The notes under the pieces: model-generated
The model's input: the letters and a program-made list of their open reading frames with translations, nothing else
Told to the model about the DNA's origin: nothing
Database searches by the model: none
Assembly: GCA_002839605.1 (NCBI GenBank)
Contig: PGYK01000006.1
Span: forward strand, 62,001 to 126,000
Length of the DNA stretch: 64,000 nucleotides
Direction: 5' to 3'
Source: Methanomicrobiales archaeon HGW-Methanomicrobiales-3
GTDB taxonomy: Archaea > Halobacteriota > Methanomicrobia > Methanomicrobiales > Methanospirillaceae
Program-made: the position numbers and the translations under genes
Shown here: positions 22,563-62,341 of the stretch, in pieces
Layout of the letters: each line of letters begins with the position of its first letter
Position numbering within the stretch: the first letter of the stretch is position 1

Positions 22563-24662
22563 TCATTCATCATCCTCATCAAGGTACCCGTGCAGGGCGT
22601 CGAGGAGTTCTGCTGACGACTGGTACCGCCTTGCCGGGTCCTTCTCAAGGCACTTGAGGATGATCTTCTCAACAGCCTGGGCATCAGGATTGTATTCGAA
22701 TGGCGCGGTGGGCGTGTCCCGCAGGATGGCATTTCCCACCTCAACAATACTCTCGCCACCGAACGGGATCGACCCGGTCACCAGTTCGTAGAAGACCACG
22801 CCGAGCTGGTAGATATCGGTACGTTCGTCAGTCCGGCCAAACTCCGAGGGGGATACCTGCTCGGGCGCTGCATAGGAGAGCGAGAAGCCGGCTACGCTTG
22901 ACTTTTTCACTTCGGCAGCAAGCACTTTGCTCATCCCCCAGTCGGTGATCTTCGGCACCATTTCCGCGGTCAGGAGGATATTGTGGGGCTTGATATCCCG
23001 GTGGATGAACCCGTGCTCGTGGGCATACCGGAGCCCGTCAACCACGAGGGTGATGAGATGGACCGCCTTCCAGACCGGCAGGGGTTTATCGAGGGCCTCG
23101 AGCGAGCCGGGCACAAACTCCATCTCCACATACGGGACAGGAAGGATATTGACCGCCGTGACCTCGACTATATTCTCGTGCCGGAGCGTCTCCCACGCCG
23201 CGATCTCATTGAGGAAGCACTTGCCCGTGACCTCATCGAAACTTATCGGGATCTTGACGGCAACTTTCGTACCGTCGGTCTTGCGGATTGCCGAGAAGAC
23301 CCACGCGATCCCCCCGCGCCCGACAAAGGTAATCTCCGTGTATTTGTTCTCCAGTTCGCGCGGGAAGTAGTTCTTCTGGTCCGTAACCGAGGGTTTCGGT
23401 TCGGCATCCTGCGTATCGGAAAGCACGGTCTTCAGGCTCGGGATCGTAACAAGCGACCGGGTCTTTAAAACGGCACTTTTGAGTGCCGATGCTGCCTTGG
23501 TCATGACATGCGGTCCCGGTTCGGGGGCATCTGGTGCAGGGGTGGCCGGTTCATCCTCATTTACCGGGGCCCCGCGCCGTTTCCTGATATAATAAGCCCC
23601 GCCCCCGAGCACAACGGCTGCAACGAGAATGATGAGCCCGGCCATCAGCAATGCGCTGTCGGAAAGGGGGAGCTGGATGGGTGACGAAGCTACCGTGGGT
23701 TGCAGGCCCGGGGTCTGCACACCACTGGGCAGAGTGGTTGGCACCGGTTCTGTGAGAGACGAATTCACGGAGCCGGAACCCACCGGGGTCACTTTGGCGT
23801 AGTACTCTTTTGGATCCATGAGGGGGAACGCATCCACACGGTTCTGGTTCGATTCCAGCGTTGCCTTCAGGTTGGCCCCGATGCTGATGGAATACGGGGT
23901 ATCCCCGATACCGTCCCCATTGACATCCAGTCCCCGGTAATCGCTCCAGTAATTACCCATCTGACTCTTCTGGCTCTTGCCCAGATAGGTATACGTGAAG
24001 GGGAGCGGCGAGGAAAAAACCGACGTTGCGCTCCGGGAGAAGACGTTCTGGGCATTCTGGAAATTATTCCGGGAGATGGTGTTGGAGAGGGAATACTCGT
24101 CTTGTGAGATCCCGGTCGGGTTTTTTTTCACCACATTGTTCTCAATACGGTTGCCGGTCGATTGTTCAAGAACAAGCCCGGTCTTCTCGTTTTCCGAGAT
24201 CTCGTTCTCCCGGATCACATTTTTACCCGAAGAGACCAGGATGATACCGATCCCGTTTCTTTTAATTGTGTTCTTCTGGATGGTGTTGTTATTGGACGTG
24301 ATCCGGATCCCGCTTGACTGGACGCTGTTCTGGACTGAGAAACCCTCAACCGTGCATCCATCGGCAAGGACCACTACCGCCGGATCCCGGTTGTCAGGGC
24401 TGATCACCGGCGCTCCCGCCCCGGTATCCACTCCGATGAGGGTTATCGTCTTGGTGAGCCGGACATTTTCCAGGTAAATCCCGCTCCGGACGATGATCGT
24501 CTCTCCGGATGACGACCAGTCAACCGCGTCCTGGATGCTGACAAACTCGGCACCGGACGGGGAGACGATACGCTCCGCTGCTGCACCCATGGGAAGGAGG
24601 AGGAGGCACAGGATACCGGCAAGGAGTATCCATACGGCGGAAGTGCGGGAGGAAGGCATCAT
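22563..24662 (-). CDS. receptor-like Ser/Thr protein kinase with extracellular beta-helix domain
   Basis: The 699-residue protein has a signal peptide (1-29), a right-handed parallel beta-helix of the NosD/PbH1 type (about 35-285, with repeated N.I..N.I.. units and the typical GNYWSDYRGLDVNGDGIGDTPY end), a Pro/Ser/Thr-rich stalk (about 291-332), one transmembrane segment (about 336-358), a basic stop-transfer and a linker, then a Hanks-type kinase (440-695). Kinase landmarks are GRGGIAWV (448-455), Lys470, Glu486, HRDIKPHN (554-561), DWG in place of DFG (574-576) and AAPE (598-601), so it should be active. A TATA box at 24693-24701 is about 31 bases before ATG 24662. The wHTH-FHA gene lies directly upstream on the same strand. 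Confidence 0.93.
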   Translation of the reverse strand: MMPSSRTSAVWILLAGILCLLLLPMGAAAERIVSPSGAEFVSIQDAVDWSSSGETIIVRSGIYLENVRLTKTITLIGVDTGAGAPVISPDNRDPAVVVLADGCTVEGFSVQNSVQSSGIRITSNNNTIQKNTIKRNGIGIILVSSGKNVIRENEISENEKTGLVLEQSTGNRIENNVVKKNPTGISQDEYSLSNTISRNNFQNAQNVFSRSATSVFSSPLPFTYTYLGKSQKSQMGNYWSDYRGLDVNGDGIGDTPYSISIGANLKATLESNQNRVDAFPLMDPKEYYAKVTPVGSGSVNSSLTEPVPTTLPSGVQTPGLQPTVASSPIQLPLSDSALLMAGLIILVAAVVLGGGAYYIRKRRGAPVNEDEPATPAPDAPEPGPHVMTKAASALKSAVLKTRSLVTIPSLKTVLSDTQDAEPKPSVTDQKNYFPRELENKYTEITFVGRGGIAWVFSAIRKTDGTKVAVKIPISFDEVTGKCFLNEIAAWETLRHENIVEVTAVNILPVPYVEMEFVPGSLEALDKPLPVWKAVHLITLVVDGLRYAHEHGFIHRDIKPHNILLTAEMVPKITDWGMSKVLAAEVKKSSVAGFSLSYAAPEQVSPSEFGRTDERTDIYQLGVVFYELVTGSIPFGGESIVEVGNAILRDTPTAPFEYNPDAQAVEKIILKCLEKDPARRYQSSAELLDALHGYLDEDDE

Positions 24663-24692
24663 GAAGTCCGGTTGTTATTCCAGAGTTTGTTC

Positions 24693-24701
24693 TTTTAAAT
24701 A
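24693..24701 (-). promoter_or_regulatory. TATA box for the receptor kinase gene
   Basis: TATTTAAAA on the minus strand, about 31 bases from the kinase ATG, is at the distance expected for a leaderless or nearly leaderless transcript. The kinase could thus be expressed separately from the upstream FHA gene. Confidence 0.6.
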
Positions 24702-24740
24702 CATAAGGGGGATTATTCAGGCGGGTGCCCGGCCATCTTT

Positions 24741-25526
24741 TCAGCCTTTTGCAGGAAGGACCATGAGGAGTTTTATTCCCGATACCCCTTTTGCCAGCTC
24801 GATGAGATCGCCATCCCGCAGGGCAACCGGAACAGCCTTCTCAAGCCGCTTGTTGTTGACCTGTGTCCCGCCCGTGCTCCCGCAGTCCTCGATAAACCAG
24901 CCATCGTTCTTGTGCAGGAACCGCCCGTGGGGTTTTGAGACGCGGGTGACTGCCGTGTACCCTTCGGAGAAGACCACATCCGACCCCGGATGGTAGGCTT
25001 TCAGGTTCTCGGGATCGCACCTGCCGATGTTGACGGACTCTTCACGGATCAGGAATACCTTTGTGTCGTCCGGGCCGCCAAGGACAATGACTGCCGGAAC
25101 GTTCCCCAGAACTTCCCGGGATATGGTACCTTTGACCGCGTCGAGCCTTTGCGAGATCTCGCTTCCGACAACACTGACCCGCGTGTTGGAGAAGAGACTG
25201 AGGTTCCGGATAATGGCCTCAAGGCCGCCCGGCACAAGCGAGTACTGCCAGACCGGGTGAATACCCTTGGATGTCGGTGCGCCAAGACCGGCCTCCTTTT
25301 TGATGACCCCGATGCTTAAGAGTTTGTCGAGGTGCTTTTTTGTGTTCTCATAGCTGGTCTCGATCTCCTTTGAGATCGAACGGGCATCGCGCGGCTTCTT
25401 TTCCAAAAATTTTAAGATCCTCAGCCGTGCGCTGCTGGAAAGGACATCAAGATAGTCCGACAGTTCCTCTAAGGAATCGGATTCTGCGGGAACAATAAGC
25501 GTGGGAGATTTATCGTCGGGGTCCAT
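24741..25526 (-). CDS. winged-helix DNA-binding protein with C-terminal FHA domain
   Basis: The 261-residue product combines an ArsR-like winged helix (about 20-100: DVLSSSARLRILKFLEKKPRDARSISKEI) with a forkhead-associated domain (about 140-258). The FHA phosphothreonine-binding residues are visible in NIGR (166-169), S197..H200 in RVSKPHGRF, and the GSTGGTQVN loop. A middle helix (105-135) links them. FHA domains bind phosphothreonine, so the adjacent transmembrane kinase is the obvious partner. ATG 25526 is preferred over the upstream start at 25667, which would run through the promoter. A good TATA box lies at 25601-25610. Confidence 0.9.
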   Translation of the reverse strand: MDPDDKSPTLIVPAESDSLEELSDYLDVLSSSARLRILKFLEKKPRDARSISKEIETSYENTKKHLDKLLSIGVIKKEAGLGAPTSKGIHPVWQYSLVPGGLEAIIRNLSLFSNTRVSVVGSEISQRLDAVKGTISREVLGNVPAVIVLGGPDDTKVFLIREESVNIGRCDPENLKAYHPGSDVVFSEGYTAVTRVSKPHGRFLHKNDGWFIEDCGSTGGTQVNNKRLEKAVPVALRDGDLIELAKGVSGIKLLMVLPAKG

Positions 25527-25600: not shown

Positions 25601-25610
25601 GTTTATATTT
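25601..25610 (-). promoter_or_regulatory. TATA box for the wHTH-FHA gene
   Basis: AAATATAAAC on the minus strand preceded by a purine-rich BRE-like GAGGAGG. It implies a leader of about 50 bases before ATG 25526, room for autoregulation by the encoded winged-helix protein. Confidence 0.6.
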
Positions 25611-25784
25611 CCTCCTCATTCGGTCATCCCTGCGGTTATGCCGTGTAACTTCGGAGTTCAACAGCACAACCGGGGCGATTTGGGGTATTTATCTGCACCG
25701 GGAAAGGACATAGTGATCAGGTGATACACGAGCATGATTCGGCGTGTCACCGACCCATGAAAGAACCGTACGAGGAAAATTACG

Positions 25785-26012
25785 ATGAACACCGGAAAGA
25801 TCATAATCGGTTTCTCACTGGTCCTGCTCTCCATTGCCATGATGGTATCCCCGTCAGCGGCAGCCACACCGCAGGACTGCTGTGAAGCGGGATACCCAAT
25901 CGCCGTATCCTTTGGAGAGACCGGATGCCCGGCCGTTATGCACCACGATCAGGCTGAAGGGTTCATTGTACACGATCCCCGTACCGATGCCACATACCCG
26001 TACGAACGATGA
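25785..26012 (+). CDS. small secreted protein, unknown function
   Basis: The 75-residue product has a signal peptide (hydrophobic to about residue 20, cleavage near SAAA-TP) and a mature part of about 48 residues with three cysteines (DCCEAG and TGCPAV) and His/Asp-rich stretches (HHDQ, HDPRTDATYPYER). GAGG lies about 9 bases before the ATG. It is divergent from the wHTH-FHA gene. No family is recognised; it is short, so the call rests on the signal peptide and ribosome site. Confidence 0.55.
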   Translation: MNTGKIIIGFSLVLLSIAMMVSPSAAATPQDCCEAGYPIAVSFGETGCPAVMHHDQAEGFIVHDPRTDATYPYER

Positions 26013-26258: not shown

Positions 26259-27230
26259 TTATTCCTTTCGCCGGAGACTCAGTATGCCGAGCGCAGCGAG
26301 GGCAACTGCTGCAAATGGCAGCACCGCAGATGGCGGGGATTGCGGGGTTTGTTCAACATATGCAGTCGGCACAGTACCGATGGGTATGGCAGTGGTGGGG
26401 ATGGGTGTTGGCCGGGTCGTAATTGCGGTGTCCTGCACGGTCACGACCGGGGTTGCTGATGCCTGGGCCGGCACGGTCAGCCGGACATTATCGATATAGC
26501 CGGTCGCATAAATTCCCGTGGGACCGTAATCCCCAACGGATCCGATAAAGATGCGGTTCATGCCGTGAAGTTCCTGGGCAACATTGACAAAATAGCTCCA
26601 GATCTCGTTGCCGCTGGTCTTCTCGTTCACCTTCATGCTCAGGAGCGCATTCTCCGAATCATAGTCAACGGTGACATGGTACGTCTTGTTCAGCTCGTAC
26701 TTCACCGTGGGTCCGTCATAGGCACGCGAACCGCTGGTCAGGGTGTCGCCGTGCTGGCTGTTTACCTGGGTCATCTTGTTGCCATTCGTCACCATGCGCA
26801 GCCACATGATCCGGCCGAACTTGGCGTTGGTGAACTGGGTCAGGACCATGGGGCCTTTGTTCGGGTCCATCTCTGCACCCGAGAAGCCGAGTCGGAACGT
26901 TGCACCATCGTTTGCAAACGCATCTACCCGGTTGAGGATGACATCGTACTCGAGCCTGAAGGGGCCGCGCTCGTAGTCAAGGGTGTCAAATTTGGGATCG
27001 GGGTAATAGGCATAATTGCCGGTGCTCGGCTCGATACCGAAGTGATACATGCCGAGTTTGGAATCCCAGTAATCGGATGACGGATTGTTGGTCACCCAGC
27101 GGGGATCGGTCGAGAACGTGGTCTGGTAGATCACGGTCGGGGACTGCGTATCGTCTGCAAGTGCCGGGGGTGCCAGCGCCAGCAGGAAGGTTACAAGGAT
27201 AAGATAACAGATTGCGGATCGGAAGTTCAT
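26259..27230 (-). CDS. secreted surface protein with LamG-like domain and C-terminal anchor
   Basis: The 323-residue product has a signal peptide (1-25), a beta-sandwich domain of about 210 residues resembling concanavalin/LamG-type lectin folds (YQTTFSTDPRWVTNNPSSDYWDS... IDNVRLTVP at the end), a Thr/Pro-rich stalk (about 245-295) and a C-terminal hydrophobic segment followed by RRKE, the layout of archaeal cell-surface proteins. The sugar-binding inference is from fold pattern only. Its TATA-like box (near 27353-27365) suggests a leader of about 100 bases. Confidence 0.8.
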   Translation of the reverse strand: MNFRSAICYLILVTFLLALAPPALADDTQSPTVIYQTTFSTDPRWVTNNPSSDYWDSKLGMYHFGIEPSTGNYAYYPDPKFDTLDYERGPFRLEYDVILNRVDAFANDGATFRLGFSGAEMDPNKGPMVLTQFTNAKFGRIMWLRMVTNGNKMTQVNSQHGDTLTSGSRAYDGPTVKYELNKTYHVTVDYDSENALLSMKVNEKTSGNEIWSYFVNVAQELHGMNRIFIGSVGDYGPTGIYATGYIDNVRLTVPAQASATPVVTVQDTAITTRPTPIPTTAIPIGTVPTAYVEQTPQSPPSAVLPFAAVALAALGILSLRRKE

Positions 27231-27561: not shown

Positions 27562-27632
27562 GCGATAATAGTCTAGCGGTAGGACAGGAGCTTCCCAAGC
27601 TTCTAACCCGGGTTCGATCCCCGGTTATCGCA
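27562..27632 (+). tRNA. tRNA-Gly (anticodon CCC)
   Basis: The cloverleaf is complete: acceptor GCGATAA pairs with TTATCGC, the anticodon stem GGAGC/GCTTC encloses the loop TTCCCAA with anticodon CCC, and the T arm is CCGGG-TTCGATC-CCCGG. The discriminator is A and CCA is not encoded. The next gene's ATG starts only 8 bases after the discriminator, so the two are probably on one transcript. Confidence 0.95.
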
Positions 27633-61786: not shown

Positions 61787-62341
61787 TCATTTCCTCAACT
61801 TCAGATGATAGTTCCGTTGCCGGGCTACGTCATCCAGGAGTGCATGAAGCACCCCGGCTTTCTCTTTGATTGCCAGCCCGGCGGAGTTCTTTTTCGCTTC
61901 AGCCAGAATTCGTTCCAGTTCAGCGATCGCAAGAACGGTAGCGGCAATGCAGTAGTAGCTCTTTGAACGACCTTCGTTGAACTCGGCAAGCATCTCATTC
62001 AGGAGGCTTTCTCTCTTCTTCTGCAGGTTTTCAAACGCCTCCACGCCGTCCTTTTGGATAAAGGCAATATCGTCCTCAAGGGTCTGGTAACACTTGAATG
62101 AATCGGCGGTTTTCCCGGCCTTTCGGTGTCTGGCCCATTTTTCACACATCTCCTGCTCTTTGCAGTCCCAGCAGAATTCCACTCCTTTTTTCTTTAAAGC
62201 GCAGGTGATGAACGGGCAGCCGGCAGAGATCCGGGATTCGGTCTTGCAGCCGCCGCACCGGCTTCTCCCTTCCGTGTGGTAATGGGGGCAGAGCCGGCAG
62301 GAGAGACCGCAGATGGCAATTTCAGGATAGCTGATGGTCAT
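61787..62341 (-). CDS. DUF3795 domain protein, longer form
   Basis: The 184-residue product has the DUF3795 cysteine pattern (ICGLSCRLCPHYHTEGRSRCGGC, GCPFITC, FCWDCKEQEMC) and a helical C-terminal half. A shorter relative is at 30376-30777, lacking the C-terminal half. It is convergent with the DGC gene. Function unknown. Confidence 0.88.
   Translation of the reverse strand: MTISYPEIAICGLSCRLCPHYHTEGRSRCGGCKTESRISAGCPFITCALKKKGVEFCWDCKEQEMCEKWARHRKAGKTADSFKCYQTLEDDIAFIQKDGVEAFENLQKKRESLLNEMLAEFNEGRSKSYYCIAATVLAIAELERILAEAKKNSAGLAIKEKAGVLHALLDDVARQRNYHLKLRK

Follow-up and report, generated by a model that had tools for sequence, protein, structure and literature searches.

In Mycobacterium tuberculosis, embR and pknH share an operon, with embR in the upstream position, and the FHA domain of the EmbR regulator mediates its phosphorylation by the PknH kinase (PMC9239209). 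This system is the nearest functional precedent for the gene pair analyzed here, which is encoded in a 64,000-nucleotide stretch (the window; positions 62,001 to 126,000 of contig PGYK01000006.1) from Methanomicrobiales archaeon HGW-Methanomicrobiales-3 and consists of a regulator, in which an ArsR-like winged helix-turn-helix (wHTH) is fused to an FHA domain, and a receptor-like Hanks-type Ser/Thr kinase. In three other proteins, GarA, OdhI and DgcB, a threonine of the N-terminal tail, in its phosphorylated form (pThr), binds the FHA domain of the same protein, with hydrophobic residues at positions +2 and +3, the latter described as crucial in DgcB (PMC6733907); GarA and OdhI inhibit metabolic enzymes and DgcB involves diguanylate cyclase control, so that DNA binding is not the output in any of these cases. 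According to published accounts, FHA domains are missing from most archaeal genomes, and FHA proteins are conserved in Crenarchaeota alone and rare in the remaining archaea; ArnA (Saci, SisArnA) and St0829 of Sulfolobus are FHA proteins that have been connected with transcription and with Hanks-type kinases (PMC6509490, PMC10470591). The nearest cases are EmbR-PknH for function, GarA, OdhI and DgcB for switching, and ArnA and St0829 among the archaea.

The likeness to EmbR-PknH consists in a winged-helix protein with a C-terminal FHA domain that is encoded directly upstream of a receptor-like Hanks-type kinase; in light of this precedent (PMC9239209), the combination is less unusual than the first-pass annotation of the window held. 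The two systems differ in their sensors and in their DNA-binding parts: EmbR contains an OmpR/SARP-type DNA-binding domain followed by a helical BTAD, neither of which gave a Pfam or NCBIfam match in the ArsR-like archaeal regulator, and a profile search with the latter retrieved EmbR (2fez, E 0.0015) through the FHA part only. The archaeal protein would work like EmbR but is not a member of its family; EmbR-PknH is bacterial, and the resemblance is likely convergent. The mapped phosphosites of EmbR are T22, T164, T198, T209 and T275, and we know of no single invariant tail threonine in this protein. ArnA and St0829 possess a zinc ribbon and the partner ArnB and come from the class Thermoprotei, in contrast to the methanogen regulator with its winged helix; assignment to the ArnA family, with its four-Cys N-terminal zinc ribbon, was rejected, the N-terminal part of the regulator being a winged helix devoid of Cys. 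The pair and the parts of the regulator are laid out as follows.

22563..24662, minus strand: receptor-like Hanks-type Ser/Thr kinase, 699 amino acids (aa) (Pfam, AlphaFold2)
24741..25526, minus strand: wHTH-FHA regulator, 261 aa (ATG at 25526, stop at 24741)
25482..25526, minus strand: disordered N-terminal tail of the regulator, residues 1-15 (predicted local distance difference test, pLDDT, <50 in AlphaFold2)
25500..25502, minus strand: codon of Thr9, putative phosphorylation switch (invariant, 99/99)
25296..25433, minus strand: ArsR-like winged helix, HTH_5, residues 32-77 (Pfam, AlphaFold2)
25311-25352, minus strand: helix 59-72 with the nearly invariant YENTKKHLDKL (alignment, AlphaFold2)
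24759..25094, minus strand: FHA domain, residues 145-256 (Pfam, alignment, fold match)

The genome is that of a Methanoregula-like archaeon (2.59 Mb, 98% complete). In all of it, the kinase is the only full-length one and the only Pkinase match above the Pfam cut-off, and the regulator, separated from it by a 78-bp gap, is the only FHA match. To assess the conservation of the pair, genome contigs were scanned with the FHA protein as the sole query, which yielded 80 loci whose representatives are 48-95% identical to the regulator from the window. A homologous kinase adjoins the regulator in each of the 72 loci with readable downstream DNA (downstream on the same strand in 70, convergent in 2), and in the remaining 8 the contig ends before the kinase position; given that the sole kinase and the sole FHA protein of the genome are neighbors and that this adjacency holds in all 72 readable loci, the pairing reflects more than chance. 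Among distant paralogous loci picked by FHA similarity, the kinase adjoins in 18 of 18, so that the conserved adjacency that the first-pass annotation proposed to look for holds at both levels, and in some loci the stop and start of the two genes overlap. Across 232 Methanomicrobiales genomes, 149 encode both proteins, 3 the FHA protein only (in two of these, the FHA gene is at a contig end), 15 the kinase only and 65 neither; the co-occurrence of the FHA protein with a strong kinase match is highly significant (Fisher p 7e-39, kinship among genomes ignored), although the counts are not independent events because the genomes share ancestry. The pair outlasts its neighborhood, since flanking genes differ outside Methanoregula and the downstream dGTPase is common to only 24 loci. 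The distance matrices of the kinase and the regulator are strongly correlated (r = 0.909 for 85 pairs, reached by 0/500 permutations), and for paralogous pairs the nearest neighbors agree on the two sides. Adjacency, co-occurrence and co-evolution together support the conclusion that the two genes are a conserved functional unit.

The most telling feature of the regulator, which is a new finding here and was missing from the first-pass annotation, is Thr9. This residue shows no parsimony changes in any of the 99 sequences that reach position 9, a set that takes in paralogues of about 40-50% identity, whereas the remaining 15 columns among positions 1-16 each underwent 18-39 changes (median 27), as counted on a regulator tree made without the tail columns. 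The residues that follow are hydrophobic in nearly all sequences: position +1 is Ile, Leu or Val, and +2 and +3 are mostly hydrophobic. A fixed residue in a variable tail is how a phosphosite under strong selection would look. As in the self-binding FHA switches GarA, OdhI and DgcB, the threonine lies in a disordered N-terminal tail of an FHA protein and is followed by hydrophobic +2 and +3 residues, and by analogy the regulator tail resembles the self-binding pThr tails of these proteins; a difference is that in DgcB position +1 is Ser, with Glu at -2 (PMC6733907), compared with Ile, Leu or Val at +1 in the archaeal regulator.

The regulator is predicted by AlphaFold2 to consist of the disordered tail, the winged helix, a helical linker and an FHA sandwich, which bears out the proposal of the first-pass annotation that an ArsR-like DNA-binding domain is fused to FHA in the gene upstream of the kinase on the same strand. 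The HTH_5 (ArsR) match scores 27.9 bits (cut-off 22), and the ArsR-family regulator 2p4w was among the matches in the profile search. Most residues of the YENTKKHLDKL helix are invariant or nearly so across regulators, and this near-invariance suggests that the regulators of the family share a common DNA target. The FHA domain is matched by Pfam at residues 170-244 (E 1.6e-12, 48.1 bits, cut-off 20.7), and the best structural matches of this part include the GarA-PknB complex, OdhI in its phosphorylated form and DgcB bound to its phosphorylated tail peptide (6i2p, 2kb3 and 6hc1 are among the best fold matches). Four residues of the FHA domain are conserved: Gly168, Arg169, Ser197 and His200, with Arg169 and His200 invariant and Ser197 nearly so.

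The adjoining kinase has the architecture of a membrane receptor:

24579..24662, minus strand: signal-peptide-like N terminus, residues 1-28 (model helix 5-21; cleavage site by eye)
23784..24575, minus strand: extracytoplasmic right-handed beta-helix with NosD-like repeats, residues 30-293 (Pfam NosD/Beta_helix, AlphaFold2)
23577..23660, minus strand: single membrane helix, residues 335-362 (AlphaFold2; hydrophobic peak matching in relatives)
22620..23342, minus strand: kinase domain, residues 441-681 (Pfam Pkinase)
22995-23003, minus strand: HRD, residues 554-556
22935-22943, minus strand: DWG (alignment)
22896-22901, minus strand: activation-loop Ser588-Ser589 (sequence)

The AlphaFold2 model comprises the signal-like helix, the beta-helix, the membrane helix, a disordered juxtamembrane stretch and the kinase fold, and together with the Pfam matches agrees with the first-pass description of a beta-helix, one membrane span and a Hanks domain with intact catalytic residues. 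The Pkinase match (residues 441-681) is highly significant (E 2.9e-40, 138.8 bits, cut-off 31.7), and the nearest structure to the predicted kinase fold is PknB, at about 30% identity. The P-loop, the VAVK Lys, the alpha-C Glu, HRDxKxxN, the metal-binding Asp and APE are all present, as in Hanks-type kinases, and Lys470, Glu486, HRD 554-556, Asn561 and Asp574 are invariant or nearly so across 68 kinase sequences. By its residues, the protein is an intact Hanks-type kinase, for which phosphotransfer is predicted. The replacement of DFG by DWG, singled out in the first-pass annotation as a departure, is invariant (68/68) and hence a family signature; for the same reason, we dropped the idea that it marks a weakened kinase. 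PknB and StkP share with the archaeal kinases the arrangement of an ectodomain, one membrane span and a cytosolic Hanks kinase but differ in having PASTA repeats and DFG: the kinase from the window shows no Pfam match to PASTA repeats and falls far below the threshold of the PASTA kinase family NF033483 (201.7 bits, cut-off 450), and its relatives carry a beta-helix, PEGA or other ectodomains and DWG throughout.

The ectodomain is the changeable part of the protein. The NosD/beta-helix Pfam match covers residues 99-244 (E 1.7e-23), and the strands from about residue 30 to 293 are regular and mostly modeled with pLDDT >90; identity with the copper protein NosD itself was rejected (TIGR04247, 119.2 bits, cut-off 300), leaving NosD-like repeats. 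Among 56 kinases, the ectodomain is NosD-like in 26, of the PEGA type in 15 and neither in the rest, and some relatives have short ectodomains or several membrane spans; besides the signal peptide, most kinases of the Methanoregula clade contain one span and others several, and a hydrophobic N-terminal run is found at the matching place in most relatives. About half of the kinases lack the beta-helix, and it was accordingly dropped as the defining sensor: the membrane-to-promoter pathway outlined in the first-pass annotation had the right parts in a conserved unit but not the right emphasis on this domain. In L064 (6787-7480) and L076 (6787-7773), the open kinase frame begins at a distance of only 694 bp and 987 bp, respectively, from the regulator, and most of the ectodomain is missing through frameshift, assembly error or real decay. 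Two genomes of the same genus carry clusters of three large kinases with an open frame of up to ~1900 aa (G176:C78, G161:C20), apparently apart from the FHA pair.

We consider it moderately probable that the two proteins are a dedicated Ser/Thr phospho-signaling pair in which Thr9 is phosphorylated, pThr9 is captured by the FHA domain and DNA binding is switched. Such a pair would work like a two-component system made from eukaryote-type parts: the kinase would sense an outside cue, possibly a ligand, via its exchangeable ectodomain (here, the beta-helix), become activated at the membrane and phosphorylate Thr9 in the disordered tail of the regulator encoded next to it; the FHA domain would capture pThr9 and the following hydrophobic residues, in cis on its own chain or in trans within a dimer; and the resulting rearrangement would switch DNA binding by the winged helix, in one direction or the other, at putative target genes. 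For the broader proposal of an order-wide, one-to-one pThr system, with swappable-ectodomain kinases each acting on its own adjacent wHTH-FHA regulator switched by capture of pThr in its own tail, we rate the chances as about even. What the computation establishes is the anatomy of the pair and the order of its parts, their conservation and co-evolution, and an invariant Thr9 in a stretch predicted to be disordered; kinase activity, the site of phosphorylation, capture by the FHA domain, the sign of the DNA-binding switch, the ligand and the targets are inferred.

Several observations weigh against this mechanism. Of the pThr contacts Arg, Ser and Asn of FHA domains, Arg169 and Ser197 are retained, but the canonical Asn is replaced by Gly219 in 79 of 81 regulators, as judged by alignment to a solved FHA domain; the Asn of the 'NGT' motif is one of those to which pThr recognition is ascribed (PMC10470591), so that pThr binding in this family may be weak or altered. 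The distance from Thr9 to the first helix hardly varies, a constraint that a flexible phosphosite would not require, and Thr9 could be fixed otherwise, for example, by a contact formed only in the dimer or on DNA. The AlphaFold2 model of the regulator is moderate (mean pLDDT 78, predicted template modeling score 0.57) and mute on the placement of the tail, no operator shared across genera was recognized in the upstream regions of the loci, and no biochemistry for any member of the pair family was found in the literature.

The strongest competing explanation, though an unlikely one in our estimate, is docking as in EmbR-PknH, whereby autophosphorylation of the kinase, at threonines of the activation loop or the juxtamembrane segment, creates the site to which the FHA domain binds and the regulator is phosphorylated elsewhere, Thr9 being secondary. 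The precedent is direct, the FHA domain of EmbR being essential for interaction with PknH as well as for phosphorylation by it (PMC9239209), the disordered juxtamembrane segment here contains several Thr, and 49 of the 68 kinases have an activation-loop Thr. However, none of the juxtamembrane Thr is invariant across kinases; the activation loop of the kinase from the window, KKSSVAGFS, has no Thr, a trait common to most kinases of the Methanoregula clade, and phosphoserine is mostly unrecognized by FHA domains (PMC6509490). The loop is devoid of Thr in 19 of the 68 kinases, this one among them, so that pThr in the loop is not a universal FHA ligand, whereas Thr9 is present throughout. The invariance of Thr9 would also go unexplained.

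Less probable still, Thr9 might be a structural residue or a DNA contact, with an FHA domain that does not bind pThr and serves as a dimerization or protein-contact module, and with the kinase acting at variable sites or via a third protein. Gly219 and the fixed spacing fit this possibility, whereas the conservation of Arg169, His200 and Ser197, the predicted disorder of the tail and the free variation of the neighbors of Thr9 argue against it. We regard as improbable to a greater degree that a phosphorylated kinase tail sequesters the regulator at the membrane until dephosphorylation frees it, so that control is by location rather than conformation: the strict pairing of one kinase with one FHA protein in the genome would suit such a scheme, as would the presence in the genome of three SpoIIE-type phosphatases, but these are not linked to the pair and may belong to a SpoIIA-like system, a Methanomicrobiales signature (PMC2686161), there is no conserved juxtamembrane Thr to serve as ligand, and Thr9 again remains without a role. 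A PP2C_2 phosphatase partner was also considered and rejected, with no match in the genome. That the genes are mere neighbors without a common function, as a TATA-like TATTTAAA in the 78-bp gap, from which the kinase is perhaps transcribed alone, might hint, is very improbable given that the genes adjoin in all readable loci, from several genera and including paralogous copies, that stop and start overlap in some of these, and that the proteins co-evolve (r = 0.91).

The DNA around the regulator start contains several candidate control elements and a small divergent gene:

24694..24701, minus strand: TATTTAAA, TATA-box-like, in the 78-bp gap (sequence only)
25601..25610, minus strand: AAATATAAAC, TATA-box-like, kept in most of the clade (alignment)
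25720..25751, no strand assigned: inverted repeat GGTGACAC-N16-GTATCACC (motif search over Methanoregula-clade loci)
25785..26012, plus strand: divergent small open reading frame (ORF), 75 aa, signal-peptide-like N terminus (sequence)

The TATA-like TATTTAAA, which may provide the kinase with its own promoter, is also found in the near-identical locus L064 but is not evident in most relatives; AAATATAAAC is the likely promoter of the regulator gene. The inverted repeat, in the form GGTGACAC-N(13-18)-GTRTCACC with small variations, precedes the regulator gene by ~200 bp in 28 of the 29 Methanoregula-clade loci, the window included; the loose pattern also matches 3 of the 51 other loci, and shuffling of the upstream sequences gave 1.55 matches per 80 on average. 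The repeat is a candidate operator or, as the variable spacing between its halves could also mean, a hairpin in the leader RNA of the divergent small gene. Its absence upstream of the regulator in other genera, despite the same DNA-binding helix, keeps us from proposing it as the regulator's binding site; it is restricted to the Methanoregula clade, other elements being conserved upstream in Methanolinea and Methanoculleus. An attempt to derive a genome-wide regulon from the GGTGAYAY inverted repeat was abandoned, given only two exact copies in the genome, the one in the window, which is the sole intergenic copy, and one inside an ORF; across the genus, matches are found mostly at the pair locus. 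A search for known RNAs in the intergenic region found none, the only hit being tRNA-Gly at 27562-27632.

The product of the divergent ORF contains several Cys; its N terminus is recognizable in ~10 relatives, and the frame is interrupted by an in-frame stop in L064. That this is a co-regulated or ligand gene is speculative. Farther along, 26259-27230 encodes a secreted protein with a weak match resembling a carbohydrate-binding module; this protein accompanies the pair in 25 Methanoregula-clade loci and could be a co-conserved surface protein.

The fusion of the two regulator domains, which the first-pass annotation proposed to trace across archaea, is restricted to Methanomicrobiales within its phylum: in the same-phylum genomes searched, no full-length relatives were found outside the order, only partial winged-helix matches. 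FHA domains outside the order were detected in 4 sampled genomes. One genome outside the order has three FHA matches within ~4 kb (G451:C1:2044264-2048421), and G369 and G427 show similar clusters of two; these clusters may represent another archaeal FHA system. Two variants were noted among the loci. In four of them, from one related genus (L004, L006, L009 and L012), there is a distinct FHA protein of ~184 aa, too short for a winged helix plus linker, and in L207 (5951-6754) a second, degenerate wHTH-FHA protein directly precedes the kinase, with the intact regulator ~3 kb upstream.

To our knowledge, how a signal passes from Ser/Thr kinase to promoter is understood in some detail in archaea only for the archaellum network of Sulfolobus. 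About two thirds of the Methanomicrobiales genomes encode a fused DNA-binding FHA protein, which a receptor kinase accompanies in almost every case, and no description of this pair was found in the literature, which, the search having covered open-access papers, is weak evidence of absence. What is new is the lineage, the domain combination and a specific, testable switch residue; the parts and the logic are known. In a system of two genes, with a single kinase and a single FHA protein in the genome studied, mutation of Thr9 would test the mechanism, and this single switch candidate makes a rarely studied form of archaeal signaling directly testable. If true, the order-wide pThr system would parallel two-component systems at the level of Ser/Thr phosphorylation, its genes having duplicated pairwise in methanogens, and its combination of swappable sensors with a constant output would make the sensed signals comparable across these organisms.

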